DNA of 64,000 nucleotides. Source: Ardenticatenales bacterium (GTDB taxonomy: Bacteria > Chloroflexota > Anaerolineae > Promineifilales > Promineifilaceae). Location of the stretch: the NCBI GenBank assembly GCA_020634575.1, contig JACKBM010000020.1:28753-92752 (forward strand). Direction: 5' to 3'. The position numbers and the translations under genes were made by a program. Shown here piece after piece: positions 25,083 to 52,368 of this stretch (positions are counted from its first letter, which is position 1; every line of letters starts with the position of its first letter). The notes under the pieces were generated by a model that was not told the origin of the DNA, ran no database searches, and worked only from the letters and a program-made list of their open reading frames with translations.

Positions 25083-25156
<74 letters not shown>

Positions 25157-34801: not shown

Positions 34802-34893
34802 CACGGATTTGCACGGATTGGGCACGGATTTTTCTTTTTTGAAGAGCAGTTTCTAGATTGAAAAAAAATCCTGCAAATCCGTGTTAATCCGTG
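34802..34893. repeat. Short CACGGATT repeats flanking an inverted copy
   Basis: CACGGATT occurs three times at 10-11-bp spacing (34802, 34812, 34823), and its complement AATCCGTG twice at 10-bp spacing (34876, 34886). The two arrays can pair across a T- and A-rich centre. It fills the gap before gatB and lies just upstream of its ribosome site. Confidence 0.7.
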
Positions 34894-34914
34894 TCCACTC
34901 TTCACAGGAAAACA

Positions 34915-36372
34915 ATGGATACGAGTAAGTATGAGGCAGTAATTGGGCTTGAGGTCCATGCGGAGTTGATGACGAACTCCAAGATGTTTTGTGGTTGTCC
35001 CGTCGTGGACAGTGTGGAGGCAGAGCCGAATACGGCGGTTTGCCCGGTTTGCCTGGGGATGCCGGGGATGTTGCCGGTGATCAACCGGCGGGCGGTTGAG
35101 TTTGCCATGAAAGTGGGGCTGGCCCTGAACTGCACCATCGAACATTACAACGTTTTTGACCGCAAAAATTACTTTTATCCAGATCTGCCCAAGGGGTACC
35201 AGGTTTCCCAGTACGAGCTGCCGCTCTGCCGCCATGGCCAGGTGGAGATTGAGCTGGAGGATGGCAGCACCAAGGTGATTCGGGTGCGGCGCGTCCATAT
35301 GGAAGAGGACACCGGCAAGCTGACCCACCGGCCGGAAGGCGGCTCCCTCGTCGATTACAACCGCTCCGGCGTGCCGCTGCTGGAGATCGTCTCCGAGCCG
35401 GACATCAGCTCCGCTTACGAGGCACGGGCCTACGCCATGAAATTGCGCCAGCTGCTGCGCTACCTGGAGGTCAACAGTGGTGACCTGGAGAAGGGCGTGC
35501 TGCGTGTCGAGCCGAATATCAGCATCCGGCCGGTTGGCAGCACGGAATTTGGCACCCGCACCGAGCTGAAGAACCTTAACAGCTTCAAGGTGCTGGCGGA
35601 CGGCACCGATTTCGAACTCAGCCGCCAGGCCGCCATCCTGGATGCGGGCGGTGAAGTGGTGCAGGAGACGCGTGGCTGGAACGAGGATCGGCGTGAGACC
35701 TTCAGCCAGCGCAGCAAGGAAGATGCTCACGATTACCGCTATTTCCCTGAGCCGGATCTGCCGGAGTTACAGATCGAGCCGGCCTGGGTGGAAGCGGTCC
35801 GGGCGTCACTGCCGGTGCTGCCCGACGTGCGGTTGGCCCGGTACCGGGATGAGTTGGGCCTGTCGGCTTATGAGGCGCGGTTGTTGGCGGAGGACCGGCC
35901 GGTTTCAGACTGGTTCGAGGCGGCGCTGGCGGCCGGCGGCGACAGCAAATTGCTGGCCAACTGGCTGCTTAACAATCTGTTCACCATCCTCAACGAGCGC
36001 AAACTGGATATCAACGCCATTCCGCTGGCACCGGCTGGCCTGGTCGAACTCATTAACCTGGTTCAGGACGGCACCATCAACAACAACACGGCCAAGGATG
36101 TGCTGGCCGAGATGGTCAGCACCGGCGCAGCGGCGGCGGAGATTGTGGCCAGTAAAGGGTTGGCCCAGATCAGCGATCCAGCGGCGATAGCCGCCACCAT
36201 TGACCAGATCCTGGCTGACAACCAGTCCCAGGTCGACGCTTATCTGGGCGGCAAGGATAAGCTGCGCGGTTTCTTCGTCGGTCAGGCCATGCGCGCCTTT
36301 CAGGGCAAGGCCGACCCGGCCCTCGTTAACCAGGTTTTGAGCCAAAAACTGGACGATCTCAAGGCAAATTAG
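34915..36372 (+). CDS. gatB: Asp-tRNA(Asn)/Glu-tRNA(Gln) amidotransferase subunit B
   Basis: 485 residues. N-terminal cradle domain with [13 protein letters not shown], the CxC...CxxC zinc-like region ([13 protein letters not shown]), the [15 protein letters not shown] motif, and the YqeY-like C-terminal tail domain (about 335-480). GatB phosphorylates and amidates misacylated tRNA. The ATG at 34915 is chosen because AGGA lies 6 nt upstream and it matches GatB N-termini; an earlier in-frame start at 34891 falls inside the repeat. Confidence 0.95.
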
Positions 36373-36566: not shown

Positions 36567-39065
36567 GTGGGTAGAGTATTTGGTTTGACTGAACAACGGA
36601 CTGCGGTCTGGAATTCTTTTCTACTTGTTAGCGTACTGTTTGTCGCGGGATTTGTAGGCATTGCAATTTCCTACAATTTTTCGCTGGAGCCTGTGCTGAT
36701 TTATGGTGCCTGCCTGGTGGGGATGGGCATGGTCAATTTTGTGGCCGGCCAGCTTATCCGCCGCGAACGGTACTCGATTGGCTTTCTGCTGCTTACGCTG
36801 GTCATCAGTGCCCACCTTGTTATAACCAGCTTCTTCATTCGCGACGCCTCCTTTGTACTGCTTGGCTTTGATATCCTGATCATCTGGCTCATTTCTCGCG
36901 AGCATGTGAATACGCGCTGGCAGGTCGCGCTGATGGTCGGTACCGCTGTGATTGGTACCGGCATGGTGCTGCTTGATTTCTATGTTTTGCCCGAATACCG
37001 GGCCTACAGCCGTTTTGGCCAGCTGCTCATCGCCGCGATCGCCAGTATCTCCCTCCTCTATGCGCTCTGGCGCATTTTTCATGAATATCGGGACTATCCA
37101 CTGCGCAGCAAGCTGATTACGGCGACACTGTTTGCAGCCGTTGTTTCGATCGGGGTCAACATTTTTATTCAGGTGCAGTTAAGCTCCGCCGCACTGACGC
37201 AAGACATCGGGCAGGACCTGGAGCGGTTGGCCGAGAGTGAGGCATTGGCGGTCAGCGAGTTTATGGCCCGCCAGATCGATGTGCTCAATTCGCTGACCCT
37301 TAACGGGACGCTGCGGGCAACTCTGGGCGCATCCAACCAGCTAGTGACGCTGCCCAGGCAGAGCGATGATCCAGTGGCGCAGGGTGAGTTTGTCAACTCG
37401 CAATGGGCCGCAGCGACCGATAATGACATCATTGTTACCTCGCGACTGCAGAATGGGGCGGCCAACGCGTTGCTCCAGTTCCAGGAGTTTTTTGGCTTGC
37501 ACCGTGAGCTGTTGGTGACGGACCTGGAAGGCAACCTGGTGGCGGCCACCCAACGCACCGACGTCTTTTATTTTGGCGACGAGGCCTGGTGGCAGAGCAG
37601 CTATAACGAGGGTCAGGGCGGCGTGTTTATCGGCGACCCGATCGTGGGTGATAATCGCACGGTCCTCTGGGTCCACCTGGCGATGCCGGTGCGCGATCCT
37701 AGCAGTGGCGAGATGCTGGGCATTCTGCATTCCCGCTATGACCTGGAACAGCTTCTGGACGTGCTGGCCGAACGTGGCGAGGATCGTACGTCCGGTTCGA
37801 TTGATTTGCTGGTATCCGGCCGGTTATTCGACACCTACGACATTACCGGCATTGTCCCCAGTATCGAATTTGAGAACCTGGTCGACGTTTTAGGCCCGAC
37901 CACAGTTAGCCTCGACGAATTCTTCATCACCACCTACGAGGGCGAGCGGAGTTTTATCGCCATTGCCGGGCTGGACACATTGGGCCACGTGCCGGCCATC
38001 GATGCGCTGGATTGGGGCATTCTGGTGCACCAGTCGGAAAATGAAGCGCTGCTGCCAGTGCTGCGCCAGACAAGGGCGACGATCCTGGTCGGCTTCGGCA
38101 TTCTGGCCTTCACCACGATTATTGCGGCTTATGTGGCCGGCCTTATCGCCCGGCCGATTGTCCGGCTGACCGAGACAGCGGTCCAGGTTGCCGGCGGCGA
38201 CCTGACGGCGCGGGCGGAGGCCACCACCAGCGACGAGATGGGTGTGCTCTCGGCCTCATTCAACACGATGACCCAGGAGCTGCAGCGTTCTGTGCAGGAG
38301 CTGGAGTTGCGTGTAGCCGAACGGACACGCGCATTGGACCTCAGCGCTCAGGTTGGCCGGAAGCTGACCACGATCCTGGATACGGACCAACTGTTGCAGG
38401 CCCTCGTCGAGGAGCTGCAATCGGCTTTTGGCTACTATCATGTTCAGGTTTACTTGCGCGAAGGTCATACGAACCGGCTGATGCTACGCGGGAGTAGTGG
38501 TGAGGTCGGCCAGAAGCTGCTGGAACGGGGTCATACCCTGCTGCTGGGCCAGGGCATTGTCGGGCAGGCAGCCGCCCGGATGGCGGCCCTGGTCGTGCCG
38601 GATGTCAGCCGCAATTCCATGTGGTTCCCCAATGAATTGCTGCCCAGCACCCGGGCCGAAATGGCGGTGCCAATCACGGTTGGTGAGCAACTCATGGGTG
38701 TCATCGATATTCAGCATGACCTCGTCAACGGGTTGACCAATCAGGATGTCAGCACAGTGGAATCGATTGCCGCCCAGGTGGCAACGGCCTTGCAGAATGC
38801 CCGTTCTTACGAGCGGGCGCGCAGCCAGGCGGCCCAGGAAGCGCTGATCAATGAGATTGGCCAGAAGATTCAGAGCACGACCGATGTGGATCGGGCCATG
38901 CAGGTGGCGATTCGGGAGCTGGGCCGGGCGTTGGGCAAGGTACCGACGCGGGTCACGCTTTATCCGCGCCAGCCGGAAGCAGACGAGGCTGATGAGCTGG
39001 CAAACGACCGGCCGGTTAATAGAGCGATGAACGGCATTGGTTCACAGGATGGGCATCGTTCATGA
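36567..39065 (+). CDS. Membrane sensor: 6-TM-like region, Cache-like domain, HAMP, GAF; no output domain
   Basis: 832 residues, GTG start with strong site GGAAGGAGGG (36554-36563). Residues about 10-175 carry six hydrophobic helices. Another helix (about 180-200) precedes an extracellular Cache-like domain (about 205-510, with WWQSSYNEGQGG and LGILHSRYDL). A helix (about 512-535), HAMP (536-590) and coiled coil lead into a GAF domain (about 600-755) containing FGYYHVQVYL and NELLPSTRAEMAVPI. The C-terminus has the shared tail INEIGQKIQSTTDVDRAMQ. There is no kinase, receiver, cyclase or methyl-accepting domain. First gene of the sensor run; its stop overlaps the next start by 4 bp. Confidence 0.88.
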   Translation: MGRVFGLTEQRTAVWNSFLLVSVLFVAGFVGIAISYNFSLEPVLIYGACLVGMGMVNFVAGQLIRRERYSIGFLLLTLVISAHLVITSFFIRDASFVLLGFDILIIWLISREHVNTRWQVALMVGTAVIGTGMVLLDFYVLPEYRAYSRFGQLLIAAIASISLLYALWRIFHEYRDYPLRSKLITATLFAAVVSIGVNIFIQVQLSSAALTQDIGQDLERLAESEALAVSEFMARQIDVLNSLTLNGTLRATLGASNQLVTLPRQSDDPVAQGEFVNSQWAAATDNDIIVTSRLQNGAANALLQFQEFFGLHRELLVTDLEGNLVAATQRTDVFYFGDEAWWQSSYNEGQGGVFIGDPIVGDNRTVLWVHLAMPVRDPSSGEMLGILHSRYDLEQLLDVLAERGEDRTSGSIDLLVSGRLFDTYDITGIVPSIEFENLVDVLGPTTVSLDEFFITTYEGERSFIAIAGLDTLGHVPAIDALDWGILVHQSENEALLPVLRQTRATILVGFGILAFTTIIAAYVAGLIARPIVRLTETAVQVAGGDLTARAEATTSDEMGVLSASFNTMTQELQRSVQELELRVAERTRALDLSAQVGRKLTTILDTDQLLQALVEELQSAFGYYHVQVYLREGHTNRLMLRGSSGEVGQKLLERGHTLLLGQGIVGQAAARMAALVVPDVSRNSMWFPNELLPSTRAEMAVPITVGEQLMGVIDIQHDLVNGLTNQDVSTVESIAAQVATALQNARSYERARSQAAQEALINEIGQKIQSTTDVDRAMQVAIRELGRALGKVPTRVTLYPRQPEADEADELANDRPVNRAMNGIGSQDGHRS

Positions 39066-40402
39066 CAGTTGCGGAGCGGGTGATGCAACCATTGGTCGAT
39101 ATCGGCCAGGCGCTGGATCAGCGGCGGGAGATCGTTCTGCGCTGGGTTCTGTGGGGTGCTCTGCTGCTGCTGCCGCCTATTTTGCTGCTGCAATATGAGC
39201 TGATATTGGCCAGACAGCCGCGCCTGCTTTATGTGGGCGGCGGGCTTGCCCTGCTGTCCGGCATTCTCCTGTTCTTCCGGCGCATTCCCTACCGCTTCAA
39301 GGCTGGTTTACTCACGACATTGCTGATTATTACCAGCTGCTACAATTTGCTCGCAATCGGGGTGAACAGCAGTAGCCTGTTGACCATTTTTGTCGTTTTG
39401 TTGCTGGTATTTGCCTTTATGGGCTTGCGGGCCGGCCTGGCGGCGACATTGCTTTTTGCCGTGGCGATTGGGGGGATGGGGGCTTTGATGGGGACCGGCC
39501 GGTTCTCTGTCCCTTCTGCCCTGGAAATTTACGTTGGCCCCACCTGGTATGGCCTGGCTATTCGCTATGGTCTGCTCTCGACCATTGTGCTGTTGATGAG
39601 CCTTAGCTTTGTCCGCGTGATCTCGCGGGCCCTGCATGATCAGCTGGCCCTCACTGATCGCCTGGCCGCGGAGCGCAGCGCTCTCCTGGGCCGGGTCGAA
39701 GAAAGTACCAAGGCCTTGACGCTGACGGCGGAAATCAGCCGCCAGTTGACCACGATTCTGGATGCTGATGCCTTGCTGGATGCGTTGCTTGGCCAGATTC
39801 AGACGATGTTTGGCTACTATTACGTCCAGGTCTACTTGCTCGAAAAAGAGACCAATATGCTGACTCTCCACGGCGGTACCGGCCAGCCCGGTGTCAATGT
39901 GGCGGGTTTGCCCGGCCGGCAGGTGGTTCCGCTGGGTGTGGGCATGGTAGGCCTGGCCGCGTCCCGCGGCACGTCCATTGTGGTCAACGACATTTCGGAG
40001 AGCAACATCTGGTTGCCCAACCCCAACCTGCCCAAAACCCAGGCTGAGGTTGCGCTGCCCATCGTTTTGGCGGATGAGGTGATCGGCGTTTTGGACGTCC
40101 ATCATCACCAGCTAAACGGGCTGACCGAGTCAGATCTGGCCACCCTGGAGACCGTTGCCTCGCAGCTGGCAACCGCTCTGAACAATGCCCGCCTGTTCGA
40201 GCAAGCTTTCCAACAGGCTACGCATGAGGCTCAGATCAATCGCATCGCGCAACGGCTGGAGGCCAGCACGGACGTTTATTCGCTGGTGCAATCAGCGGCT
40301 CGCGAGATTGGCCAGGCGCTGGGTGCGCAAGTCATGGTGGATATCAATCTCGGGGAACTGCAATCACAGGTCCTTAAAACCGACATAGGGCGGCTACGAT
40401 GA
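39062..40402 (+). CDS. Multi-TM GAF protein without output domain
   Basis: 446 residues. About five or six hydrophobic helices in residues 20-190, a short coiled segment, one GAF domain (about 220-385) with FGYYYVQVYL and AEVALPI, and the shared C-terminal tail from INRIAQRLEASTDVYSLVQ. There is no catalytic domain. Starts and stops overlap neighbours by 4 bp on both sides (ATGA), so it is translated in a coupled manner. Likely a membrane component that passes a signal to the kinase encoded later; this is inference. Confidence 0.85.
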   Translation: MTVAERVMQPLVDIGQALDQRREIVLRWVLWGALLLLPPILLLQYELILARQPRLLYVGGGLALLSGILLFFRRIPYRFKAGLLTTLLIITSCYNLLAIGVNSSSLLTIFVVLLLVFAFMGLRAGLAATLLFAVAIGGMGALMGTGRFSVPSALEIYVGPTWYGLAIRYGLLSTIVLLMSLSFVRVISRALHDQLALTDRLAAERSALLGRVEESTKALTLTAEISRQLTTILDADALLDALLGQIQTMFGYYYVQVYLLEKETNMLTLHGGTGQPGVNVAGLPGRQVVPLGVGMVGLAASRGTSIVVNDISESNIWLPNPNLPKTQAEVALPIVLADEVIGVLDVHHHQLNGLTESDLATLETVASQLATALNNARLFEQAFQQATHEAQINRIAQRLEASTDVYSLVQSAAREIGQALGAQVMVDINLGELQSQVLKTDIGRLR

Positions 40403-41724
40403 GCACAGGGATAATGGGCGAAATATTGCCCCTGACCAGCGAGCATCCCCAGGCTCGCCGCCTGATGGCCGAGTCGCGCCGCCTGATTAGCCAGCGCATG
40501 GCGCGCTTGCTGGCTCTATTCCTGCCGGTGCTCCTGTTCCCCACGATCCGGACGGCATTTTTGGCCGAGCAGTGGCCTGTGCTTTTCAGCTTTTTGCTCG
40601 GCCTGGTGCTAATCGCCTATGCAGCTTTAGCCGTGCGTTTGCCCCATCAATTGCGTTCTACCACGCTGATATTGGCGCTGGAGCTGCTTATTGTCGGCGA
40701 AGTGGCGGCGCATGGGCTCATCGTTGATGCCCTGCCCTACGCCCTTCTGGCCCTCATCCTGGCCACAACCTTGCTGGACGTCTGGGTGGGCATCGGGATA
40801 TTCCTGGTCAACCTGGCTGGCACGATTGGCGCAGCTTCATTGACACAAAACGGGCTTGTCGACACCAGTAGCCCGCTGTTGCTTGAATATCTGGCGGGCA
40901 ACCTGTGGCTCTGGGTGACCATTAAATTCGCCATTCTGCTGCCGCTTATGGTGATGCCTTTCCTCTGGCTGCTGGATGACACGGGCCATTCTCTGGGCCA
41001 GCAGCGCGATCTGTCGCGGGCCCTGCGCCAGGAGCAACAGCTGTTGACACGGCGGATCGCGACGAGGCGGCAGGCGCTGGAGACCAGTCTGCAAATCAGC
41101 GCCAATCTGGCCACGTTGCTGAACGTAGATCTCCTGGTTGACGAGGTCGTCCAGCAGATACACCGCTCCTTTAACTACTACCACGTGCAAATATATCTGC
41201 TGCGCAAGACGAAGCCGGAGCTGGAGCTGCGGGGGGCTACTGGTACAGCAGGCAAGGAATTGTTAGCCCGTGACCATGCGGTTGGCCTGGGCGAAGGCAT
41301 GGTGGGCCGGGCTGCCCGTGAACGCGAGCTGCTGCTGGCCTCTGATGTGCGCCAGGATCCCCATTGGCTACCCAACGAATTGCTGCCGGATACGCGCGCC
41401 GAAATCGCCATTCCCATTGTGGCAGGCGAAGACCTGATCGGTGTGTTGGATGTGCAGCATGATTTGCTGGAAGGTTTGACCGCGGATGACCTGGTGGTGC
41501 TGCAAACGATAGCCAACCAGGTCGCCATCGCCGTTCAGAATGCCTCCCTGTTCCAGCGAGCCCAAAGGCGTGCGGAAACGGTGGCCATGGTGAACCGGGT
41601 TGTGACCACGATCCGGCATGAGTCAGACCTGGACCAGGTGTTGAAAATGACAGTGAAGCAGATGGGCGAACTGGTGAGTGCCCGTGAAGCGCAAATTGTA
41701 CTGTCGCTTGATAAGGAAGATTAA
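40399..41724 (+). CDS. Multi-TM GAF protein without output domain
   Basis: 441 residues, built like the previous gene product: hydrophobic helices over residues about 35-195, one GAF domain (about 230-385) with FNYYHVQIYL and NELLPDTRAEIAIPI, and a tail VNRVVTTIRHESDLDQVLK of the shared type. The similarity and 4-bp coupling suggest tandem duplication within the operon. No catalytic motif. Followed by a 54-bp gap. Confidence 0.85.
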   Translation: MSTGIMGEILPLTSEHPQARRLMAESRRLISQRMARLLALFLPVLLFPTIRTAFLAEQWPVLFSFLLGLVLIAYAALAVRLPHQLRSTTLILALELLIVGEVAAHGLIVDALPYALLALILATTLLDVWVGIGIFLVNLAGTIGAASLTQNGLVDTSSPLLLEYLAGNLWLWVTIKFAILLPLMVMPFLWLLDDTGHSLGQQRDLSRALRQEQQLLTRRIATRRQALETSLQISANLATLLNVDLLVDEVVQQIHRSFNYYHVQIYLLRKTKPELELRGATGTAGKELLARDHAVGLGEGMVGRAARERELLLASDVRQDPHWLPNELLPDTRAEIAIPIVAGEDLIGVLDVQHDLLEGLTADDLVVLQTIANQVAIAVQNASLFQRAQRRAETVAMVNRVVTTIRHESDLDQVLKMTVKQMGELVSAREAQIVLSLDKED

Positions 41725-41778
41725 TCGTGAGATTTGCTGCAAATAATCTCAAGCGTCAAAAAGCGACCAGGGGGTGTC

Positions 41779-44379
41779 ATGCATACGCCATTTCATAGCA
41801 GCCTGACCTGGCGCAACTCAGTTGCCTTGTTCGTGCTGAGTGTCGTGGCTTTTATCTGTTTTGCCATGATGAAGCAGACGGTTGTCGCGCAGCAGGACAA
41901 TGCGGCGCGGCTGGTGCTTGTCAGCCAGCAGCCCCAGTTGGCCGACAGCATCGCGGTGGCGGCATTGGAGCTGGTCTATGGCGCCACACCCCAGCAACGG
42001 GACGCGGCGCGGGATAGCCTGGCCCGGGCCATCAACCAATTTGAAGAAAATCACCGGACCCTGACCCGGCCGGATCTGGCCAGTGGCGAGCTGCCGCTGA
42101 CCAGTTCAATGAGCAATCTCTACTTCAATGATCCGTTTGATCTGGACGACCAGGTTCTGCAATATCTCGAAGCAGCAGTCCAGCTTCAATTCACCTCTGA
42201 TCCTGATTTGACGCCGGATATGCCCGCGTTGACCTATCTTCTGGAACAGCGCGAAGGGCGCCTCATGAGCAGCCTGCAGGGTGCTGTCAATTTGCAGCAA
42301 GCCAGCAACGAGGCAGAAGTGCAGCAACAGGATGTGGTCTTGTGGGCAGCCATCGGCGCCATGCTGTTGTCGCTGGCACTGGTAGGCCTCATTATTTTTG
42401 TGCCGCTGCAGCGATTGGTCCGGCAACGCAGTGAAGAGCTGATCACAACCAATCAGCGGTTGCAGGGCCAGAATGAGGCCGTTGGCAACCTGACGCGAGA
42501 CATGGAACTGGCTGCTGAGATTGGCCAGGTCGTCACCGAAATTCAGGACCTGGATGCGCTGTTGATTCGGGCGGTAGATCTGGTCCGTTCCCGTTTTGAT
42601 CTCTATTACACCCAGATTTACATGACGGATCCGAACCGGCGCAGCCTGCTCCTGCGGGCTGGTACCGGCGAAGTGGGCCGAACCTTGATGGACAGAGGGC
42701 ATCGCCTGGCGGTGGCGCCGGACTCCATCAATGGCATCGCCGCCTATGAGCGGCGTTCCCTGATCGTGGCAGACACGGAAGCCAGCGCGGCTTTCCGGCC
42801 GAATGTGCTGTTGCCGGAAACACGCTCCGAAATGGCCGTCCCTATCCTGTATCAGGATGAAATCCTGGGTGTGCTGAATCTGCAGAGTGCGGTTGTCAAT
42901 GGCTTGAGTTCGGCGTCATTGCCCGCCTTTGAGGCGATTGCCGGTCAGCTGGCTGTTGCCATCGTCAACGCCAATCTGTTTGAGGTGACGCGCAACGCGC
43001 AGGAAGAGATGGCGCTGCAAGCCCGCCGCCTCACGGAAGCGGGCTGGTCTGATTTCCTGAATGCGGTGGACCGCGGCGAAACCATTGGCTATGTCTATGA
43101 TCAGTCTGGGCTGAAGAGTATGAATCACCGCCCGCGGCGGGCCAGCCATTCGGTCAACACTTACTCCAGCCGGATTGCGATCGCTGGCACAACCATTGGC
43201 CAGATTCAGCTTACGGCCGACCCGGATGTGAGCTGGAGTGAAGAACAGCTTGAGCTGGTCGATGCCATTTCCCAGCAGGTGGCACGCCAGCTCGATAACA
43301 TTCGCCTGTTGGCCGAGGCGGACCGCTATCGGGAACAGGCCGACCTGGCGCTGCGCCGTCTGACGGGCGAGGCGTGGTCAGGTTATGCCAAACAGCGGCA
43401 GCTTTCCAATTATCTGTACGATGGCCAGAAGATCTCCCTGCTTTCGGGGTCGGATTCAGGGGATACAAGCCTGCCCACGCTGGTTGAACCGCTGGAAGTG
43501 CGCGGCGAAATCATCGGCGAAGTTGCCGTCAATGAAAACAGCGACATGGATGAGGATGCGCCGGACCTCATCGCCGCCGTGGCGGAGCGGTTGAGCAGCC
43601 ATCTGGAGAACCTGCGCTTGAATGAGCAGATGGAGCGGGCGCTGAATGCGTCTGAGACCCAGGCAGAGCGGTTGGTACAGTTGAATGAGTTGGGCGCCTC
43701 CCTCAGTAATGCCCGCACGTTGGAAGAGGTTTTGACGCTGGCGGCGGTGCAAACCAAGGAGCTGGTCGGCGGCCAGCGGGCCAGTCTGGCCCTCTTTAAT
43801 CCCAGCACCGGTGTGCTGACTATCCATGACCTGGATGATGAGGTGACCGCCTCGATCATGCGGCGGGAGATGGCAGCTGCCGGCACGGCGATGGAAGAGG
43901 TGTTGATGACCGGTCATGTGTTGAGCTTCGCTGACATTCGCCACTCAGAGTTTGTCGACAATGTCGGCCTGCGTGAGCTGGATATCCGGTCCCGGGCCAT
44001 TGCGCCGCTGATTACCCAGCAAGGTGTGATCGGCACCATTAATGTGGGCAGTGTCGTGATCAATGATTTTGACCAGACCGATCTTTCCTTGATGCAACAG
44101 CTGGCCAGCTTGCTGGCAGCGACCATCGACAACCGGCGGTTGTTGAGTGATGCCCAGCGCCAGGCGTATCGGGAGCGGATGGTCAACCAAATTACCCAGA
44201 AAATCCAGGGAGCGCGCACCATCGATGGGGCGCTGCAAACTGCGGTGGAAGAGCTTGGCCGTACCTTGAAGGCGCGCCAGGCGCGTGTGCAGCTTGGTTC
44301 AGCAACGGTGAATGGTACCAATGGAACCAGCAACGGCCGGGTTGACGGCTATGAAGAATTAGGCAATGGCGTGCCTTAA
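41779..44379 (+). CDS. Two-TM sensor with two GAF and two degenerate GAF-like modules; no output domain
   Basis: 866 residues. TM helix about 10-32, an extracytoplasmic helical part (about 33-185), second TM about 188-210. Then a GAF (about 235-400; YYTQIYM, LLPETRSEMAVPI), two degenerate modules (about 405-510 and 515-620) starting AGW-SDF and EAWSGY with a YxYD motif, a further GAF (about 625-785) and the shared tail NQITQKIQGARTIDGALQ. ATG at 41779 with AGGGGGTG nearby; an earlier TTG at 41734 is in frame but lacks support. No catalytic domain. Confidence 0.85.
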   Translation: MHTPFHSSLTWRNSVALFVLSVVAFICFAMMKQTVVAQQDNAARLVLVSQQPQLADSIAVAALELVYGATPQQRDAARDSLARAINQFEENHRTLTRPDLASGELPLTSSMSNLYFNDPFDLDDQVLQYLEAAVQLQFTSDPDLTPDMPALTYLLEQREGRLMSSLQGAVNLQQASNEAEVQQQDVVLWAAIGAMLLSLALVGLIIFVPLQRLVRQRSEELITTNQRLQGQNEAVGNLTRDMELAAEIGQVVTEIQDLDALLIRAVDLVRSRFDLYYTQIYMTDPNRRSLLLRAGTGEVGRTLMDRGHRLAVAPDSINGIAAYERRSLIVADTEASAAFRPNVLLPETRSEMAVPILYQDEILGVLNLQSAVVNGLSSASLPAFEAIAGQLAVAIVNANLFEVTRNAQEEMALQARRLTEAGWSDFLNAVDRGETIGYVYDQSGLKSMNHRPRRASHSVNTYSSRIAIAGTTIGQIQLTADPDVSWSEEQLELVDAISQQVARQLDNIRLLAEADRYREQADLALRRLTGEAWSGYAKQRQLSNYLYDGQKISLLSGSDSGDTSLPTLVEPLEVRGEIIGEVAVNENSDMDEDAPDLIAAVAERLSSHLENLRLNEQMERALNASETQAERLVQLNELGASLSNARTLEEVLTLAAVQTKELVGGQRASLALFNPSTGVLTIHDLDDEVTASIMRREMAAAGTAMEEVLMTGHVLSFADIRHSEFVDNVGLRELDIRSRAIAPLITQQGVIGTINVGSVVINDFDQTDLSLMQQLASLLAATIDNRRLLSDAQRQAYRERMVNQITQKIQGARTIDGALQTAVEELGRTLKARQARVQLGSATVNGTNGTSNGRVDGYEELGNGVP

Positions 44380-44402
44380 GCACTGTGTTGGAGTAGCCAG
44401 CA

Positions 44403-47400
44403 ATGGCCGAAAATAAGCGTAGAAAAAGTTTCGAATTGACAGATGCAGAATGGAGTTTTGAGCTCAATCCGCCGGGCCTGCACCCAATGGCCGGCAACGT
44501 CGAGTTCTTTTTCGATTTTGCGCGCGAACTGTACGTCATACTGGATGCGACCGGCAACGTCCATCGCATCAACGAGGCGCTGGCCCGCCTGGGTGGTTGG
44601 GAACCGGCCGATTGCGCCGGCCAACCCTTTGCCAATCTCATTGCCCCGGACGACCGGCCAGCCGTGGCCGCCATCCTGGCTGAGAACGCAGCCGCCGGTC
44701 CAGGGGCTGATTTTACCGCCGCTTGCCTCACGGCAGACGAAACGACGATCCCTATCGCCTGGCGGCTTTCAACGCAGCCCAGCGGTATGCTTTATCTGGC
44801 CGGTGTGCCTGCGGCGCAACCAGCCCCAGCGCCAACGCCGGCACCTGAACCGGCCGAACTGCCGGCGCCGGTTGAGCCGGCCCAGACCGAGCCAGCGGTT
44901 GTCGCAGCCGAGGCGCCCCCCAATCTGTTTCAGACCATTTTTGAACAGCTACCTGAACCCTGGTTGCTGGCCTCAGCGGAAGGGTTTGTGGATGGCAACC
45001 AGGCGGCGCTGGCCCTGCTTGGCCTGGCTGATAAAGAGGCGTTAATTGGCCGGCAATTGAGTGATCTGTCACCGTCTCATCAGGCTGATCACGTGGCTTC
45101 TGCCGACAAATTTGCCAACGCCCTGGCCCGTCTGGAGCAGAAGAGCCAGCACGAGTTTGATTGGCTACTGACGGGCGACGAGGGGGCGGACCGGCCGGTC
45201 CACATCCACCTCAGTCGCAGCGCCGCCCTGCCGGACCTATACCTCATGCGGCTCCGCTTGGCCGCTACTGAGCCGGATTACGCGACACTGAGCAGCCGCC
45301 GCGTCCGCGAACTCGGCCTGCTGGCCGAAGTGGCCGCGACGATCGCCCGGGTCTCCGATCCTGACCAACTGCTGGACGACGTTGTGAATCTGACCAAGGA
45401 TCTTTTCGTGCTCTATCATGCGCAGCTTTTCCTGCGCAGCAGCTTTGGCGATTGGCTGGAACTGCGTGCCGGCGCTGGTCCCGAAGGCGAGCAGTTGGTC
45501 CGTCAGGGTTTCCGGATTGGCGTTACCGAACACGACAACATCATCTCTTTTGCGGCCATGATGCGCGAGACAGTGCTGGTGAGCGATATCCAGTCCAGCG
45601 AACAGTTCCGGCCGGTGGCTATCTTGCCAGAATCTCATGGCGAGATGGCGATCCCTATCCTGGTGGACAACGAGCTATTGGGTGTGCTTGATTTGCATTG
45701 CCTGCGCCCGGATCGCTTTGCCGGTGAGGAAGGGAAGGTGTTTACCAGCCTCGCCGTCCTGATCGGTGTGGCCCTGCAGAATGCGCGCAACATGGATGAG
45801 GCGCTGCGCAGCCGCGAAGAGCTGGCCCGCCTCTCTGCCCGCTACGCGGAACAACGGCGCACCAATGTGGTTGACCGTATGGGGCAGCAAAATCAGTTTG
45901 ACTACCAGGATCCGGAAGCGGACGAACAGTTCCAGACAGATTTTAACGGCCGGCTGGCTGAGGTCCGTCAGCTAGAACGCCCCCTGACCCTGCAGGAGCA
46001 AAACCTGGGCTCCCTGACCGTCCTGGATCCTCAGGCTGATCCCGAGGATGCTGAGCTGATCATCGACGCCGTCCTGACCTCGCTTTCGGCGCATCTGGAG
46101 AACCTGCGGCTCACGGCGCAGACTGAGGAAGCGCTGGGCGAGACCGAGCTGCTGTATCATGTCAGCGCTCGCCTGAACGCGGCGACGTCGGTGAGTGAGG
46201 TGCTCCAGGCGGTGGTTGAGTCCGGCCTGGCGCATCAGATGACGGCGGCGACGCTGATGTTGCTGGAGCTGGATGAGCAGGGGCAGCCGGAATATGCTGT
46301 GGTGTCTGCCAGCTGGGGCAACAGCGAGCTCACGACGACCCCCATCGGCCAGCGCTATTACCTGCCTGACCTGCCCTCCTCGTCCGTCTGGATCGAACGG
46401 AAAGAAGACGCCGTGCTCATCGAGGATATTCGCCTGGATGTGCGGGTGGATGAGGCGACACGCCAATTCTTTGAACAGCTGCAGGTGCGCAGTATGGTGC
46501 TGTTGCCGCTGAACTATCGCGGTCGCTGGATTGGTATTTTGACGATCACCTGGGCGGAGCCGCACCGCTTTGAGAGCAATGAGCAGCGGGCTTACCAGGC
46601 GTTGACGGTGCAGATGACCACGGCGGTCAACAACCTGATGTTGTTGGATGAGTCACAGGTTCGGGCGACGCAGCTGGAGAAGCTGAGCCAGGCGGAGACC
46701 GATCTGTCGCTGGCCAACGATGAGGATGCGATCCTGCTGGCGTTGGTGCGCCAGCTGCCCAGCCGCTGGCTGCGCAAGGCGACGCTGAGCTATCTTGATG
46801 ATTCTGGGGCTGAGCTGATGCAGCAGTTGGTGAGCCATTGGACACCGGCCGGTTTCCAGGTCACTGATTTTTCTGACCTCACGCAAGAGGTGGTCAACCC
46901 CAACGGCCTGGCCCAGCTATGGCTGCAATACGCCGGTGAAGTTCTCAGCATCGCCGATGTTCAATCAGATTATCGCCTGCCGCCCGCCGTCAAGGTGATG
47001 GCGGAGGAAGAAGGCTGGGCCGCCGTCACCATGTTGCCGTTGCGCAGTGCCAACCGCTGGCAGGGCGTTCTGGCCCTCTACTGGACCACGACAGATGAAC
47101 TGGGCGACGATCAATTCTTCCTCTTCGACCGGTTGATGGAGCCGATTTCGGCCGTTGTGGCCAGCCGGCGCGCCCAGCTGGAGCAGCAGCAGGCGGAGGC
47201 CGCTGAGCGTGCCGCCCGGCGGGAGACAGAAAGCCTCTATATCGCCAGCCGGCGCATCAATGAAGCGCAGGATCTGGAAAACATCCTGGCGGCGACGGTG
47301 GAAACGGCCGGTGTGACCGACTTTAACAGCGGGATCATCGTTATTTTCGACGAGGACATTCGCGACGGTGAGCTGGACATCCAGATTGTCGCCAACTGGC

Positions 47401-47903
47401 ATAGCGGCGCCGGCCGGCCGCCAGAACATGTCGGTACGCATCAGGTCATCTACTCACCCACCGCCGCCGGCTTCCTGATGCCTGATGAGATTGTTTTTGT
47501 GCACAGCCTGCAAACGGATCCCCAGGTTCCCTTGCAGGTTCGCAGCAACTTTTTTGGCCGGCAGGGCGCGGAAGCCTGTCTTCTGCTGCCGCTGCTGGCC
47601 GCCGGGCGCAAATTGGGCGCGATGATTCTCACCAGTGAGAAGCCCCACGAATTTAGCGACCGGGAGAAGCGGGTCTTTGCCTCGCTGGCGCCGCAGATCG
47701 CCATCGCCATTCAGAACAAGAGCCTGCTTGAGGCGGCTCAGAATCGGGCGCGGCGAGAAAAGATTTTGCGGGAGATTACGGCTCAGGTCCGTAGTTCCAA
47801 TGACGTCGATACGATTCTACAGATCGCGGCGGAGCAGGTGGGCCGGGCCTTCGGCCGGCCGGCCTTTGTGGCGCTGGAATCGGCGCAGAAACAGAATGAG
47901 TAA
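44403..47903 (+). CDS. Soluble PAS/multi-GAF protein without output domain
   Basis: 1,166 residues with no TM segment, so cytosolic. PAS-like region (about 25-140), a Pro/Ala-rich linker (about 140-180), second PAS (about 180-280), then GAF (about 300-465; LILPESHGEMAIPI-type), a degenerate GAF-like module (about 470-580) and three more GAF domains up to about 1,100, ending with the shared tail LREITAQVRSSNDVDTILQ. Twenty-three bp after the previous gene, with GGAG upstream. It could act as an adaptor that connects the membrane sensors to the kinase. No catalytic domain recognised. Confidence 0.83.
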   Translation: MAENKRRKSFELTDAEWSFELNPPGLHPMAGNVEFFFDFARELYVILDATGNVHRINEALARLGGWEPADCAGQPFANLIAPDDRPAVAAILAENAAAGPGADFTAACLTADETTIPIAWRLSTQPSGMLYLAGVPAAQPAPAPTPAPEPAELPAPVEPAQTEPAVVAAEAPPNLFQTIFEQLPEPWLLASAEGFVDGNQAALALLGLADKEALIGRQLSDLSPSHQADHVASADKFANALARLEQKSQHEFDWLLTGDEGADRPVHIHLSRSAALPDLYLMRLRLAATEPDYATLSSRRVRELGLLAEVAATIARVSDPDQLLDDVVNLTKDLFVLYHAQLFLRSSFGDWLELRAGAGPEGEQLVRQGFRIGVTEHDNIISFAAMMRETVLVSDIQSSEQFRPVAILPESHGEMAIPILVDNELLGVLDLHCLRPDRFAGEEGKVFTSLAVLIGVALQNARNMDEALRSREELARLSARYAEQRRTNVVDRMGQQNQFDYQDPEADEQFQTDFNGRLAEVRQLERPLTLQEQNLGSLTVLDPQADPEDAELIIDAVLTSLSAHLENLRLTAQTEEALGETELLYHVSARLNAATSVSEVLQAVVESGLAHQMTAATLMLLELDEQGQPEYAVVSASWGNSELTTTPIGQRYYLPDLPSSSVWIERKEDAVLIEDIRLDVRVDEATRQFFEQLQVRSMVLLPLNYRGRWIGILTITWAEPHRFESNEQRAYQALTVQMTTAVNNLMLLDESQVRATQLEKLSQAETDLSLANDEDAILLALVRQLPSRWLRKATLSYLDDSGAELMQQLVSHWTPAGFQVTDFSDLTQEVVNPNGLAQLWLQYAGEVLSIADVQSDYRLPPAVKVMAEEEGWAAVTMLPLRSANRWQGVLALYWTTTDELGDDQFFLFDRLMEPISAVVASRRAQLEQQQAEAAERAARRETESLYIASRRINEAQDLENILAATVETAGVTDFNSGIIVIFDEDIRDGELDIQIVANWHSGAGRPPEHVGTHQVIYSPTAAGFLMPDEIVFVHSLQTDPQVPLQVRSNFFGRQGAEACLLLPLLAAGRKLGAMILTSEKPHEFSDREKRVFASLAPQIAIAIQNKSLLEAAQNRARREKILREITAQVRSSNDVDTILQIAAEQVGRAFGRPAFVALESAQKQNE

Positions 47904-47918
47904 GTATTGGATTGGGGA

Positions 47919-47963
47919 GGCTTATTCCGGCTAAGGGATAAGCCGGCCCGGACGCAGAGCGTC
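47919..47963 (+). other. Two adjacent RNA hairpins before the histidine kinase gene
   Basis: CCGGCT (47927-47932) can pair with AGCCGG (47941-47946), and GACGC with GCGTC around AGA (47951-47963). They fill most of the 79-bp gap between the soluble GAF gene and the kinase. Effect on expression is unknown. Confidence 0.35.
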
Positions 47964-47982
47964 TGCTGGTAACAGGTACGGT

Positions 47983-50900
47983 ATGGATACACCAGTAACA
48001 GCAAATGAAGCCCTTCGGTTGGCGACATTAAAGCGTTATCGAATCATGGATACGGCACCAGAGATGGTGTTCAATGAGCTGGCGCAACTGGCCACAAACT
48101 TGTTGGCTGCGCCTATGGCGGCGATCGCCTTCATTGATGAAAATCGCATCTGGTATAAGGCCCGCGTTGGTCTTGAGGACGAAAGCAGCCCACGCGAAGA
48201 GAGTTTGTGTACCCATACGCTCTATTCCCGCCAGCTGCTTTTGATTCCCGATACCCGCCATGATGAGCAATTTAAGGGGCATCCTGCAGTGGTGCGGGAG
48301 CCTTATGTCCGTTTTTACGCTGGCATCCCGCTGCGGGCTGCGAATAATCAGCCGCTGGGTGTGCTTTGCGTCATGGACCATTCGCCGCGCGAGATCAGCG
48401 ATGGCCAGATGAATGGCCTGCGCCTGATCGGCCGGCAAATCATGCTCCAGTTGGAGATGCGTCTGCGCCAGATTGAGCTGCAGCAACAGGTGATGCGCAA
48501 TCAGTCAGCGCTGAATGACACCAAGGAACAGCTCCGCACGGCCATGACCGGGCAACTCAATGCCCGCAGCGAGGCGGATGATACGCGGGAGCGTTTCCAG
48601 TTCCTCACCGAAAACTCCAATGACCTGATTACCCGTCACAGCCTGGATGGCACGTTTATCTACCTCTCGCCGGCCGTGACCCATCTGCTTGGTTATGGCG
48701 AGGATGAACTGCTGGGCCATTCGCCTTACGAATATTGTCATCCGGCCGATCTGCCCATCATGCGTGAGCAGTTCTCGCTGACCCTGGAACAAGCGGAGTC
48801 CACCACCTACACCTATCGTTTTCGCCAGCAGGATGGTAACTACATCTGGCTGGAAACGATCACCCGGACGATTTTGGATCAGACGACCGGCGAGCCGGCT
48901 GAACTGATCGCCAATTCGCGCGATGTCTCGGCGCGTGTGGTTACCGAACAGGCGTTGCGCGAGAGCGAGGCCCGCTTCCGCCGCGTGGTTGACCAGGCGG
49001 CCGACGCCATGTTCCTCTTCGCCCCCAACGGCCGCATCCTGGATGTGAACCAGGAAGCGTGCCACTCGCTGGGCTACCGGCGCGATCAGCTGACGCGGAT
49101 GGTCATGGCCGATGTCGACCACGATTATGACGAGCCGCGCTATCATGCCATCGGCGAGCTGGAGCTGGGCGACAGCGCCACATTTGAAACGCAACTGGCC
49201 CGCAAGAACGGTGAGCTGTTTGCCGCCGAGGTGCGCATCGGCCGGCTGGATAGTGGCGAATACCTGGCGCTGGCCCGCGATATTTCGCAGCGTAGTGCCG
49301 AGCAAGAAGCGGTGGCCGCTACGGCGCGGCAGTTCCAACTGTTGGCCCAGAACTGGCCTGATTATCTGCGCGTCATTGACCTGGCTACCATGCAGACACG
49401 GTTTAGCAATCGTCAGGAATTTGCCGGTCTGAGCTCTGCCGATTGGCATCCGCAGCAGCTGGGCTCGCGTGTGCACCCGGACGACCACGATGCCGTCACC
49501 GCCCATGTGGCGCGTCTAGCCGACGGTGATCTGGGCACGGACATGAACATCGTTTACCGCGTGAAGCATCCGGACGGCCATTTTGAATGGGTCAACGAGC
49601 GCGTTATCCCCTACGCCCGCAATGAGAACGAACAGATTGTTGAGGCGATTATCCTGGTAGCATTGGTTACCGAGCAGGCGCAGCTACAGCGGCAGGCTGA
49701 TGACAGCCTGCACCGCCGGGAACGGGAAGTCTCCATTTCCCGGCGTATCGCCCTGGAGATTGCCCGTCAGCCGAACCTGTCCGAGCTTTACCGCAACACG
49801 ATAGATCTCATCAAAACCGAGTTTGCCTATTACCATGTGCAGCTTTTTGGCCTGGACTCGTCCACAGATTCGGTCCAGCTCCTGTACGGCCACGGTGACG
49901 TTGGCCAGCGGATGGTGGAGATGAACCATACCATCCCGGTCGGGGTGGGGCCGGTTGGCGCCGCGGCGATTACGCGCGAGGCGGTACTGCTACCGCGTTT
50001 GAGTATCGCACCGGCATCGCCGCCGCACCCGCTCCTGAGCAGAGCCCGGGGCGAGCTGGCTGTGCCGATCATGATCGGTAATCAGCTATTGGGCGTTCTG
50101 GACGTGCTCAGCGAACGCGATGATGAGCTCAGCGATGAGGACCGCGTGGCCATGGAAGCGATCAGCAACCAGCTGGCCACAGCTATCGACAGTACACGTT
50201 TGCGCCGTGAATTGGAAGGCCAGCTGCGCGAGCTCAATCATCTGCAGCGGCTGATGAGTCGGGAAGGGTGGGAAAGCTTCCAGCAGCAACGTCGCAGTGA
50301 GAATCTCGGTTACTATTTTGACCGACGCACCGTCTTCCCCATGCAAAATGGCGCGGCCAATGGCGCCGCCCCGGTCTTGCCGGAAGGCAACGAAAAGATG
50401 GTGACCCAGCCGATCGCCATTCGTGGTGAAGTTGTGGGCCAATTAGGTCTTCAGGATCTTGAAGATGCCCCGCTGAACGAAGAAGACCGCGAGCTTTTGT
50501 CAGCCATCTCCCAACAGGTGGCTGAGGCGATGGAAAATGCCCGTCTGCTGGAGCAAACGCAGAAACGCGCGGTTGAGCTGGAAACGGTGGCCCAGGTAAG
50601 TTCGGCGACCGCCAACATCCTCGAATCACACCAATTGTTGCAGGCAGTGGTTGACCTGACCCGGCAATCGTTTGACCTGTACCACGCCCACATCTACCTG
50701 TTGGATATGGATGGCCGGGACCTGGTGCTGGCCGCCGGCGCCGGCCGGGTAGGGCGGCAAATGGCTCAGGAAGAGTGGCGCATTCCGCTGCATCAGCCGC
50801 AATCACTGGTGGCGCGGGCAGCCCGGGAACGCAAGGGTATCATCGTCAACGACGTGAATAAGGACCCGACCTATCTGCCCAATCTTCTCCTGCCCGATAC

Positions 50901-51813
50901 GCGCTCGGAGCTGGCTGTACCCATGATCGTCGGTACCAACCTGATCGGGGTACTGGACGTGCAGAGTGACGCCCTGAACGCGTTTACCCAGGACGATGTC
51001 AAAATTCAGAGCTCGCTGGCCAACCAGATCGCGGTCGCGCTGCAGAACGCTTTCCTGTTTGAGGAGCAGTTGCAGACGGCTGACCAGTTGCGCGAGGTCG
51101 ACCGGCTTAAGTCTGAGTTCCTGGCCAGCATGAGCCACGAGTTGCGTACACCGCTCAACTCCATCATCGGCTTTGCCGATGTCTTGTTGGAAGGGCTGGA
51201 TGGTGAGCTTAACCCACGTATGGAAGAGGATGTCCGGCTGATCCGCTCCAGCGGCGCCCATCTGCGCGACCTGATCGGCGAGATTCTGGACATGTCCAAG
51301 ATCGAAGCCGGCAAGATGGAGCTGCGCTACGAAGAAGTCGACTTCCCCCATCTGGCTTACGAAGTCCTGGCTGGCGCGGAGAAATACGCGGTCACCCATG
51401 AAAAGACCCACCTGGCGATCGTGGCGGATCTGGACGACGACATCAAATTTGTCTCCTGTGACCGGACGCGCATGGTGCAGATCCTGAACAACCTGGTCAG
51501 CAACGCGATCAAGTTCACCGATGACGGCAGTGTGACGCTGAAAGCATCACTTGTGGGCGAAAATATGCGTGTCTCTGTTGAGGATACGGGAATTGGTCTT
51601 AGCAAAGAAAATGCCGAAATTGTTTTTGAGCAGTTCCGGCAGGTTGATGTGACATTGACCGGCCATGGTGGCAGCACCGGTTTGGGGTTGCCCATCACCA
51701 AGAGTCTGGTGGAATTGCACGGCGGTGAGATTTGGGTTGAAAGTGTTTTGGGCCGGGGTAGTCAATTCATTTTCACCATTCCGCTGGTACAGCCCCAGCC
51801 GGAAGTCCAGTAA
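47983..51813 (+). CDS. PAS/GAF histidine kinase, class HisKA-HATPase, soluble
   Basis: 1,276 residues, no TM. GAF (about 10-165), three PAS domains (about 200-330, 325-445, 450-570), GAF (about 580-740), a degenerate GAF-like module with GWESF and LGYYFD (about 745-850), GAF (about 865-1020), HisKA with phospho-His1052 in SHELRTPLNSI, and HATPase (about 1150-1270) with N box NNLVSNAIKF, G1 DTGIGL and G2 GLGLPI. No receiver domain is fused. It lacks the shared tail found on the five upstream proteins. It is the only enzyme in the seven-gene run and probably integrates their signals. Confidence 0.93.
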   Translation: MDTPVTANEALRLATLKRYRIMDTAPEMVFNELAQLATNLLAAPMAAIAFIDENRIWYKARVGLEDESSPREESLCTHTLYSRQLLLIPDTRHDEQFKGHPAVVREPYVRFYAGIPLRAANNQPLGVLCVMDHSPREISDGQMNGLRLIGRQIMLQLEMRLRQIELQQQVMRNQSALNDTKEQLRTAMTGQLNARSEADDTRERFQFLTENSNDLITRHSLDGTFIYLSPAVTHLLGYGEDELLGHSPYEYCHPADLPIMREQFSLTLEQAESTTYTYRFRQQDGNYIWLETITRTILDQTTGEPAELIANSRDVSARVVTEQALRESEARFRRVVDQAADAMFLFAPNGRILDVNQEACHSLGYRRDQLTRMVMADVDHDYDEPRYHAIGELELGDSATFETQLARKNGELFAAEVRIGRLDSGEYLALARDISQRSAEQEAVAATARQFQLLAQNWPDYLRVIDLATMQTRFSNRQEFAGLSSADWHPQQLGSRVHPDDHDAVTAHVARLADGDLGTDMNIVYRVKHPDGHFEWVNERVIPYARNENEQIVEAIILVALVTEQAQLQRQADDSLHRREREVSISRRIALEIARQPNLSELYRNTIDLIKTEFAYYHVQLFGLDSSTDSVQLLYGHGDVGQRMVEMNHTIPVGVGPVGAAAITREAVLLPRLSIAPASPPHPLLSRARGELAVPIMIGNQLLGVLDVLSERDDELSDEDRVAMEAISNQLATAIDSTRLRRELEGQLRELNHLQRLMSREGWESFQQQRRSENLGYYFDRRTVFPMQNGAANGAAPVLPEGNEKMVTQPIAIRGEVVGQLGLQDLEDAPLNEEDRELLSAISQQVAEAMENARLLEQTQKRAVELETVAQVSSATANILESHQLLQAVVDLTRQSFDLYHAHIYLLDMDGRDLVLAAGAGRVGRQMAQEEWRIPLHQPQSLVARAARERKGIIVNDVNKDPTYLPNLLLPDTRSELAVPMIVGTNLIGVLDVQSDALNAFTQDDVKIQSSLANQIAVALQNAFLFEEQLQTADQLREVDRLKSEFLASMSHELRTPLNSIIGFADVLLEGLDGELNPRMEEDVRLIRSSGAHLRDLIGEILDMSKIEAGKMELRYEEVDFPHLAYEVLAGAEKYAVTHEKTHLAIVADLDDDIKFVSCDRTRMVQILNNLVSNAIKFTDDGSVTLKASLVGENMRVSVEDTGIGLSKENAEIVFEQFRQVDVTLTGHGGSTGLGLPITKSLVELHGGEIWVESVLGRGSQFIFTIPLVQPQPEVQ

Positions 51814-51914
51814 GGAAGTTGGTTGAGTGAAGAGCACGTGCAACTGTCTTGAATTGTCGATCTGGATCGACTACACTTAACCGACGAGCGATTTGGTGGA
51901 AGGATTGAGCAGGC

Positions 51915-52310
51915 ATGGCAACTGAAAAGACAGTCCTATGCATAGAAGATAACATCAGCAACATGACGCTGGTGGCCCGCATTGTAGAAGCTGAGGGTCA
52001 CCGGCTGATTCGGGCTGAGGATGGGCCTCTGGGGCTGGAAACTCTGTCGCGGGAGCGGCCTGACATCATCCTTCTGGACATCAACATTCCTGGAATTGAT
52101 GGGTTGACCCTGGCCCGGCTTATCAAGGATGATGAGGCGATCGCCAACATTCCTGTGATTGCCACCACCGCCAACGTGCTGGTCGGCGACCGGGAGCGTT
52201 GCCTGGAAGCGGGCTGTGACGATTACCTGCCCAAACCATTGGACATTCGTCGCCTGCGCCAACTCCTGCGCCAATATTTGACGGAACCCGAATCGACAAT
52301 GCCGGAATAG
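51915..52310 (+). CDS. Stand-alone response regulator receiver (DivK-like)
   Basis: 131 residues containing only a receiver domain. Glu11 and Asp12 bind Mg, Asp55 (LLDINIPG) is the phosphoacceptor, and Thr and Lys of the switch are in ATTAN and PKP. No output domain, so it must act by protein contact or pass phosphate on. 101 bp after the kinase gene and followed by a terminator, so it closes the operon. It is the most likely partner of that kinase. Confidence 0.93.
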   Translation: MATEKTVLCIEDNISNMTLVARIVEAEGHRLIRAEDGPLGLETLSRERPDIILLDINIPGIDGLTLARLIKDDEAIANIPVIATTANVLVGDRERCLEAGCDDYLPKPLDIRRLRQLLRQYLTEPESTMPE

Positions 52311-52339
52311 GCGTTGGCCATAGAAGCTGATTTATTTTG

Positions 52340-52366
52340 AAGCATGGCTCTGGCCGTGCTTTTTTA
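52340..52366 (+). terminator. Intrinsic terminator of the GAF/kinase operon
   Basis: AAGCATGGC pairs with GCCGTGCTT (one G-T pair) around TCTG, followed by a T run. Thirty bp after the receiver gene, directly next to the end of the convergent methyltransferase gene. Confidence 0.85.
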
Positions 52367-52368
52367 TT

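Follow-up and report, generated by a model that had tools for sequence, protein, structure and literature searches.

We analysed a window of 64,000 nucleotides from an Ardenticatenales bacterium of the Chloroflexota (GenBank assembly GCA_020634575.1, contig JACKBM010000020.1, positions 28,753 to 92,752 of the forward strand), in which seven genes form a compact array encoding GAF-domain sensors, one histidine kinase and one receiver (Table 1). The first two junctions are 4-bp overlaps and the next four are gaps of 54, 23, 79 and 101 bp. For gene 4 the ATG at 41779, preceded by a purine-rich AGGGGGTG run, is preferred as start codon; the mechanically called open reading frame (ORF) begins at the TTG at 41734. 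Pfam detects GAF in all of genes 1 to 6, HAMP in gene 1 and PAS in genes 5 and 6, and dCache_1 in gene 1 scores under the cut-off (33.6 versus 45). HisKA and HATPase_c, both above the cut-offs, are confined to gene 6 and Response_reg was found in gene 7; no output domain was detected by Pfam in genes 1 to 5. From their sequences the kinase and the receiver look intact: gene 6 contains HELRTPLN and gene 7 an aspartate within DIILLDINIPG, which we take to be signs of working motifs. A preliminary description of this DNA had reported seven same-strand genes closed by a terminator, five of them encoding sensors without a catalytic domain, the sixth the only kinase and the seventh a receiver without output. 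Our analysis agrees on all these points, including the coordinates, strand, overlaps and gaps, the hairpin with its T run, and the domain assignments. The listing for positions 35500-53500 has 23 terminator-like sites, all of them outside the intergenic gaps of the array. Promoter-like sites were no commoner than in shuffled sequences (4 found versus 5.9 expected), which leaves the status of the array as a single transcript unsupported. An inverted repeat without T run, GGCTTAT...ATAAGCC (47919-47944), lies between gene 5 and the kinase gene and might serve for processing or attenuation. A partial protein (P0004), named after a metagenome-assembled genome (MAG) of the Anaerolineales, matches part of gene 5 at 100% identity.

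Table 1. Features of the seven-gene array, its upstream neighbour and the enzyme-receiver fusion of related arrays (positions are those of the window unless a locus is named)
Feature	Position	Strand	Remark
gatB	34891..36372	+	upstream neighbour, synteny anchor
Gene 1, membrane sensor	36567..39065	+	weak dCache, HAMP, GAF, C-terminal tail; 832 residues
Gene 2, membrane sensor	39062..40402	+	MASE11-like (just under cut-off), GAF, tail; 446 residues
Gene 3, membrane sensor	40399..41724	+	GAF, tail; 441 residues; AlphaFold2 model
Gene 4, membrane N-terminus	41779..44379	+	GAF-GW-GW-GAF-tail; 866 residues; AlphaFold2 model
Gene 5, no predicted transmembrane segment	44403..47903	+	PAS-PAS-GAF-rich, tail; adjoins kinase gene; 1166 residues
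Gene 6, GAF/PAS histidine kinase, no predicted transmembrane segment	47983..51813	+	GW module, HisKA, HATPase_c; 1276 residues
Gene 7, stand-alone receiver domain	51915..52310	+	131 residues
Intrinsic-terminator-like hairpin and T run	52339..52362	+	array end
Tail, gene 1	38823..38969	+	alignment seed
Tail, gene 2	40211..40363	+	tail alignment
Tail, gene 3	41566..41715	+	model: helix, turn, helix
Tail, gene 4	44149..44322	+	model: helix, turn, helix
Tail, gene 5	47733..47882	+	LREI subtype
Two GW modules, gene 4	43003..43632	+	limits approximate
GW module, gene 6 kinase	50218..50568	+	limits approximate
HisKA phospho-acceptor domain, gene 6	51109..51312	+	Pfam
HATPase_c domain, gene 6	51460..51789	+	Pfam
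Threonine-synthase-like enzyme-receiver fusion	L122:18069-19787; L174:10167-11825; G185:C49; G167:C2; others		

All five sensors share a related C-terminal tail of about 45 residues, roughly R..ILREI...V.SS.DVDTIL..A..E.GRALG....V.L. In the 82 closed proteins of our first set of loci, the stop codon comes a median of 16 residues past the tail-profile match, which rules out a GAF domain truncated by a frameshift or by a contig end. A profile of 82 tails aligns with columns 1-40 of a GAF profile (149 full domains, 155 columns; probability 90%, E 1.6e-6). The tail is not a complete alpha-beta GAF fold, as it covers these 40 of 155 columns and is modelled as helices without a sheet. AlphaFold2 models were obtained for gene 4 (mean predicted local distance difference test score, pLDDT, 76.6; predicted template modelling score, pTM, 0.34) and gene 3 (79.5 and 0.47). 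Both show a long helix running out of the last GAF domain (residues 766-810 in gene 4, 362-406 in gene 3), then a short second helix (815-830 and 411-425) and no sheet, with block means of about 64-76; the tail is thus modelled as a helical hairpin. These are single-chain models based on 26 (gene 4) and 23 (gene 3) aligned sequences and are silent on partners. The 50 Foldseek matches listed for the gene 4 model are GAF-bearing or GAF-like structures, for example 1ykd and 1mc0. The S-helix, according to the accessible part of its description (PMC1592074), is a helical connector of about 40 residues beside sensory domains, almost always between two domains. The tail is likewise helical, of connector size and next to sensory domains, but it is C-terminal and matches the N-terminus of GAF. 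A piece of a kinase dimerisation domain or an S-helix is disfavoured as its origin, since the profile matches the GAF start and the S-helix, as far as this source goes, is inter-domain; no dedicated profile comparison was made.

A second GAF-related element, the GW module, is found in genes 4, 5 and 6. These units of about 105 residues, named after their REGW motif, match columns 100-155 of GAF with their columns 48-103 (probability 98%, E 4e-15). They are GAF-like but short, the N-terminal part of the GAF domain being absent, and the gene 4 model gives them four strands between long helices, with no second N-terminal helix. The architecture GAF-GW-GW-GAF ends with a kinase core in some proteins and with the tail in others. 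To judge from this domain order, the tail is in the position of the catalytic core. Tail and output were indeed never found together. Three protein searches gave 240 homologues (41, 79 and the best 120 of 543, including a few window proteins). With our own profiles, those for output covering kinase, PP2C, HD-GYP and GGDEF, 90 of them have a terminal tail without output, 126 an output without tail and 24 neither. The precomputed Pfam column assigns ANTAR to 20 of these 24 and HATPase to two more, and the others are P0137, which is labelled partial, and P0134, which ends inside a GAF domain. The final split is 90 with tail, 148 with output and two with neither, and none of the 240 listed homologues carries both. 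The same holds for the 171 distinct tail proteins of the fetched loci, none of which has an output or receiver domain, and for 20 further loci, where the 16 closed tail proteins and the 20 closed kinases do not overlap. As the architecture equals that of true kinases up to the last GAF domain, the tail proteins could be decayed kinases that have lost their catalytic core, the tail being a leftover. We consider this highly improbable, and it is already disfavoured: the tail matches the start of a GAF domain, it occurs in as many as 171 distinct proteins, the 82 closed ones stop soon after it and the genes are closely packed.

The array is beyond chance because the same order, 1-11 output-less GAF genes followed by a GAF kinase and a receiver, recurs in other genomes. 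The MAG contigs concerned are short. ORFs were called longest-first, with rough starts, and a real gene can be lost to a long ORF on the other strand (as happened to the fusion gene of L230 described below). Transmembrane (TM) segments were counted by a simple hydropathy rule, and domains in relatives were called mostly with our own profiles, Pfam being applied to selected copies and Pfam and NCBIfam to the window proteins. The nearest four gatB genes in the species collection (Anaerolineae or Chloroflexi) are 67-70% identical to that of the window, and a genome of the same order as one gatB relative has a gatB 71% identical. In the order of one relative, gatB is present in 49 of 56 genomes; G001, G022, G041 and G048, where the contig ends within about 1.3 kb, were excluded, leaving 45 loci for the synteny count. 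A tail-bearing GAF gene is among the four genes after gatB in 17 of these, as in the window; three loci have a GAF kinase only, two a GAF gene running off the stretch, and four less than 3 kb of following sequence. By a hand count over the gatB and same-set loci, where the right border of a tail run can be seen, the run ends in a kinase in 18 of 19 cases, and in 16 of these 18 a receiver follows, alone or fused. L126, L128 and L158 copy the layout of the window and start with a membrane protein of HAMP-GAF type (predicted TM segments: 8 in L126 and L158, 6 in L128, where it is cut). A class set of 40 loci, hand-picked from the top of the class-wide list, one per genome and none among the 56, has tail genes in 21 loci. 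The longest arrays, flanks included, have eleven tail genes ahead of one kinase (G167:C2, unbroken; G185:C49, with other genes between). A scan of genome contigs with the gene 5 alignment gave no match.

The loci read contain 79 distinct GAF/GW kinases, and a walk rule assigns 1-11 upstream tail genes to 49 of them. A receiver gene directly follows 41 of these 49 versus 8 of the 30 without tail genes, and 25 of the 41 are receiver-enzyme fusions. When the 20 kinases from fusion-selected loci are left out, the recount is 25 of 33 versus 5 of 26. Gaps between tail genes have a median of 6 bp (overlap in 17 of 42), and those between tail gene and kinase gene a median of 1 bp (overlap in 8 of 16). 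At least two TM segments are predicted in 136 of the 171 tail proteins and in 8 of the 49 tail-associated kinases (11 of 30 among kinases without tail genes); the idea that array kinases with many sensors dispense with a membrane part is only weakly supported. Tail subtype tends to go with the number of TM segments, R-type being found in 12 of 17 proteins with 0-1 TM segments and N-type in 48 of 69 with at least two. We rejected the idea of one tail subtype per gene position, which proved to be just a tendency, visible in this split and in the label "last gene" (10 changes on the tree versus 13.2 after shuffling, so low a value being reached in 2 of 500 shuffles). That tree, made with a quick method and having many open forks, holds 84 last-GAF-plus-tail segments; L158_6 and L126_6, with no scorable last GAF, were left out. 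Some of its clades reflect the place in the array: four first tail genes form one group (support 100), and the second tail genes of nine arrays are found in a clade of ten rows (support 92, not starred). Gene 5 is paired with the L128 protein that is encoded nearest to the kinase (support 92). GAF-family matches occur in 184 of the 199 genomes of the class (E<=1e-25) and some tail genes are not followed by a kinase gene; such common proteins could simply form runs by duplication, each talking to other kinases, in a neighbourhood without function. This is quite unlikely in view of the recurring order with kinase and receiver last, the overlapping genes and the position-wise grouping seen in the ten-row clade.

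A second class of arrays ends in a threonine-synthase-like pyridoxal phosphate enzyme (PF00291) with a C-terminal receiver (PF00072), here called ThrC-REC; Pfam confirmed the fusion on the L122 and L174 copies. An enzyme as the output of a receiver looks very unusual. The fusion is present in 11 of the earlier loci, in nine directly after the array kinase, and near full-length matches (64-100% identity) occur in 22 of the 56 genomes of the order. Among the 20 ThrC-REC loci of the order, 16 have a tail protein and a separate kinase, adjacent or one gene apart, and two (L228 and L230) lie on contigs that stop short of the expected position of the tail gene. In the last two, L240 and L243, the tail gene is absent and the slot is occupied by a single membrane GAF kinase-receiver. 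The N-terminal GAF domain of the L240 kinase shares 44-50% identity with the last GAF domain of four tail proteins, and the remainder matches their kinases. In L243 a tail aligns at about residues 435-476, between a GAF domain (278-433) and a GAF piece (534-601). This replacement of two proteins by one chain is the strongest sign, at the level of sequence comparison, that a tail protein and the neighbouring kinase may work as one unit.

We think it likely that the tail proteins serve the kinase encoded with them as input subunits, connected through the tail, and that the array is one multi-input signalling unit; it looks like a plug-in way of feeding many inputs into one switch. The membrane, Cache and PAS/GAF parts of genes 1 to 5 would receive the signals, and these proteins would dimerise through the helices leaving their last GAF domain. 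The tail hairpin would pass the signal to the GAF/GW stack of a single soluble kinase, gene 6, which would integrate the inputs and phosphorylate the stand-alone receiver, gene 7; the latter could act by binding a target or by handing the phosphoryl group on. The preliminary description had proposed that the five proteins form a sensor complex or act as selectable inputs to a single kinase. This is supported in part: their role as inputs gains support from the recurring order, the mutual exclusion of tail and kinase core and the two one-chain loci, and we keep it as probable.

The tail proteins might instead build a large mixed assembly of their own, with the logic of a chemoreceptor array or stressosome, whose state is sampled by the kinase; the tail would then serve sensor-sensor packing instead of binding to the kinase. 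Up to 11 paralogues per kinase, all with the tail, a stand-alone receiver as in chemotaxis and a SpoIIAA/STAS-like gene in related arrays would suit such an assembly. Arrays with a single tail gene exist, however (25 of the 49 kinases, including 16 at the ThrC-REC locus), the one-chain replacement points to a direct sensor-kinase link, and no STAS domain is found in the seven proteins of the window. We regard this assembly as possible and lean against it. The tail proteins could also be accessory regulators that lock the kinase in one state rather than upstream sensors, in the style of NreA and NreB. NreA is a small nitrate-binding protein, and NreC is a transcription factor. In this system the control of a histidine kinase lies with a separate GAF protein, the nearest precedent that we met in the accessible part of the literature (PMC8774646). 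It involves one GAF protein, unlike the present arrays with up to 11 multi-domain proteins sharing a tail; the GAF proteins of the window are separate as well, larger, and mostly have membrane parts. No NreA model is among the NCBIfam matches of genes 1 to 5, the existence of such a model in NCBIfam being unchecked. The predominance of membrane proteins (136 of 171) and the substrate-binding proteins within some arrays fit sensing better, and we therefore hold the accessory role to be possible, though somewhat unlikely.

With HisKA and HATPase_c in gene 6 and a receiver encoded next to it, to which phosphotransfer would take place, an array of input subunits for one kinase is a variant of two-component signalling. 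Its logic resembles that of chemoreceptor arrays and stressosomes, and it belongs to neither. Chemosensory arrays (MCP, CheW, CheA, CheY) also combine many output-less receptors with one kinase and one stand-alone receiver, and MCP receptors end in a helical hairpin, a likeness to the tail. In contrast, the array kinase is of HisKA type with its own GAF/PAS sensors, and the tail is like a GAF fragment. No MCP signalling domain was matched by Pfam in genes 1 to 5 at E<=0.1, CheW and Hpt are absent from the 14 Pfam families of gene 6, and no MCP, CheW, CheA-type or STAS domain was found by Pfam in the seven proteins. Three NCBIfam chemotaxis-protein matches of gene 1 are far under the cut-off and all lie at about residues 504-580, in the HAMP part. 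Single-chain histidine kinases with several GAF domains, from Chloroflexota and elsewhere, share the GAF-GW-GW-GAF modules up to the output, but have the kinase core in the same chain, where the array proteins have the tail. In stressosomes (RsbR paralogues, RsbS, RsbT), several paralogous sensors are held in one complex with one kinase, according to the accessible parts of two papers (PMC9765535, PMC9237128). Unlike these, the array has no STAS domain or RsbT-type kinase and consists mostly of membrane sensors with a histidine kinase.

The GW module is found in 31 of 32 array kinases versus 10 of the remaining 34 GAF kinases (p 4e-9 by Fisher's test, indicative only because the sequences are related) and in 19 of the 20 kinases of the ThrC-REC loci, the exception being the tail-less one-chain kinase of L243. 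Tail and GW profiles do not match each other (probability 1.5%), as expected for different parts of GAF. The tail and the GW module resemble opposite ends of a GAF domain, and docking in trans is therefore suggested. This could mean a cartridge system, in which the tails of many sensors, each being the N-terminal part of a GAF domain minus the sheet, would bind in trans to the kinase's GW module and complete it, the same logic driving the threonine-synthase-like enzyme through its fused receiver in the second class. If this were true, any tail-bearing sensor could plug into the same kinase; for the moment we find it rather doubtful. A literal GAF domain split at the junction of tail protein and kinase, a matter separate from docking in trans, was rejected, since four ThrC-REC cassettes have about 190-340 kinase residues before the GW module.

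Several observations weigh against input subunits feeding one kinase. The whole case is built from gene order, sequence comparison and single-chain models, on loci that were chosen because they contain matches and on sequences that are not independent. Although the order recurs in relatives, as the preliminary description had asked to be checked, 19 of the 45 gatB loci have no array at that place and 19 of the 40 class loci no tail gene. L149 is a tail run without kinase, the exception among the 19 bordered runs, and in the class set the tail genes of L173, L176, L177 and L185 have no following kinase called; in L177 and L185 the kinase sits before the tail gene. For eight of the 49 tail-associated kinases the next gene does not encode a receiver. 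Our profiles detect neither tail nor output in five closed GAF proteins of the first set (three with a diverged tail by eye) and in eight of the class set. Conservation of the tails between paralogues is barely above that of the GAF domains (33% versus 31%; higher in 73 of 113 pairs), and genes 1 to 4 of the window fall in no starred clade.

Other genes are found within related arrays. Substrate-binding lipoproteins (ABC_sub_bind, Bmp, SBP_bac) are encoded among the sensor genes of L137 (two), L118, L154 and L164 according to Pfam, and likely also, by look only, in L132, L141 and L002. A FIST protein gene is present as well. A SpoIIAA/STAS-like protein of 121 residues is encoded between two tail genes (L158:9781-10146, reversed locus; Pfam), with a copy alike by eye in L126 and a gene of similar size at the same place in L128. 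A methyltransferase dependent on S-adenosylmethionine (SAM; Methyltransf_19, PF04672, by Pfam on the L115 copy) adjoins array genes, with 18 similar copies in the loci read, and its gene stands between those of tail protein and kinase in L224, L225, L226, L227, L232, L236, L237, L238 and L241. By analogy it might be an adaptation enzyme, like CheR, the adaptation enzyme of chemotaxis. The presence of lipoproteins, FIST, SpoIIAA-like proteins and SAM methyltransferases fits a collection of inputs. In the G002 genome, a fusion of receiver, TCAD9 (ternary complex associated) and the DNA-binding Trans_reg_C domain is encoded downstream of a multi-GAF kinase (L123:4536-6557, minus strand). Elsewhere in the window, a second GAF histidine kinase, of HisKA_3 type, lies about 3.6 kb downstream of the array (55900-57399), a protein with cNMP-binding and bacterial PH domains is encoded upstream (27946-29865), and the sole Rfam match is a tRNA (25083-25156).

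In the titles and abstract openings covered by our literature search there is no account of such arrays, of the tail or of the threonine synthase-receiver fusion. The usual picture is that of one sensor kinase with one receiver; here, up to 11 separate sensors precede one kinase, without parts of the chemotaxis family. If the tail is a plug, inputs could be gained by gene duplication without new kinases in these GAF-rich bacteria, and the tail would be a sequence tag by which many proteins annotated as "GAF domain-containing" could be assigned to a partner kinase. The array also offers a testable module for the study of multi-input kinases.

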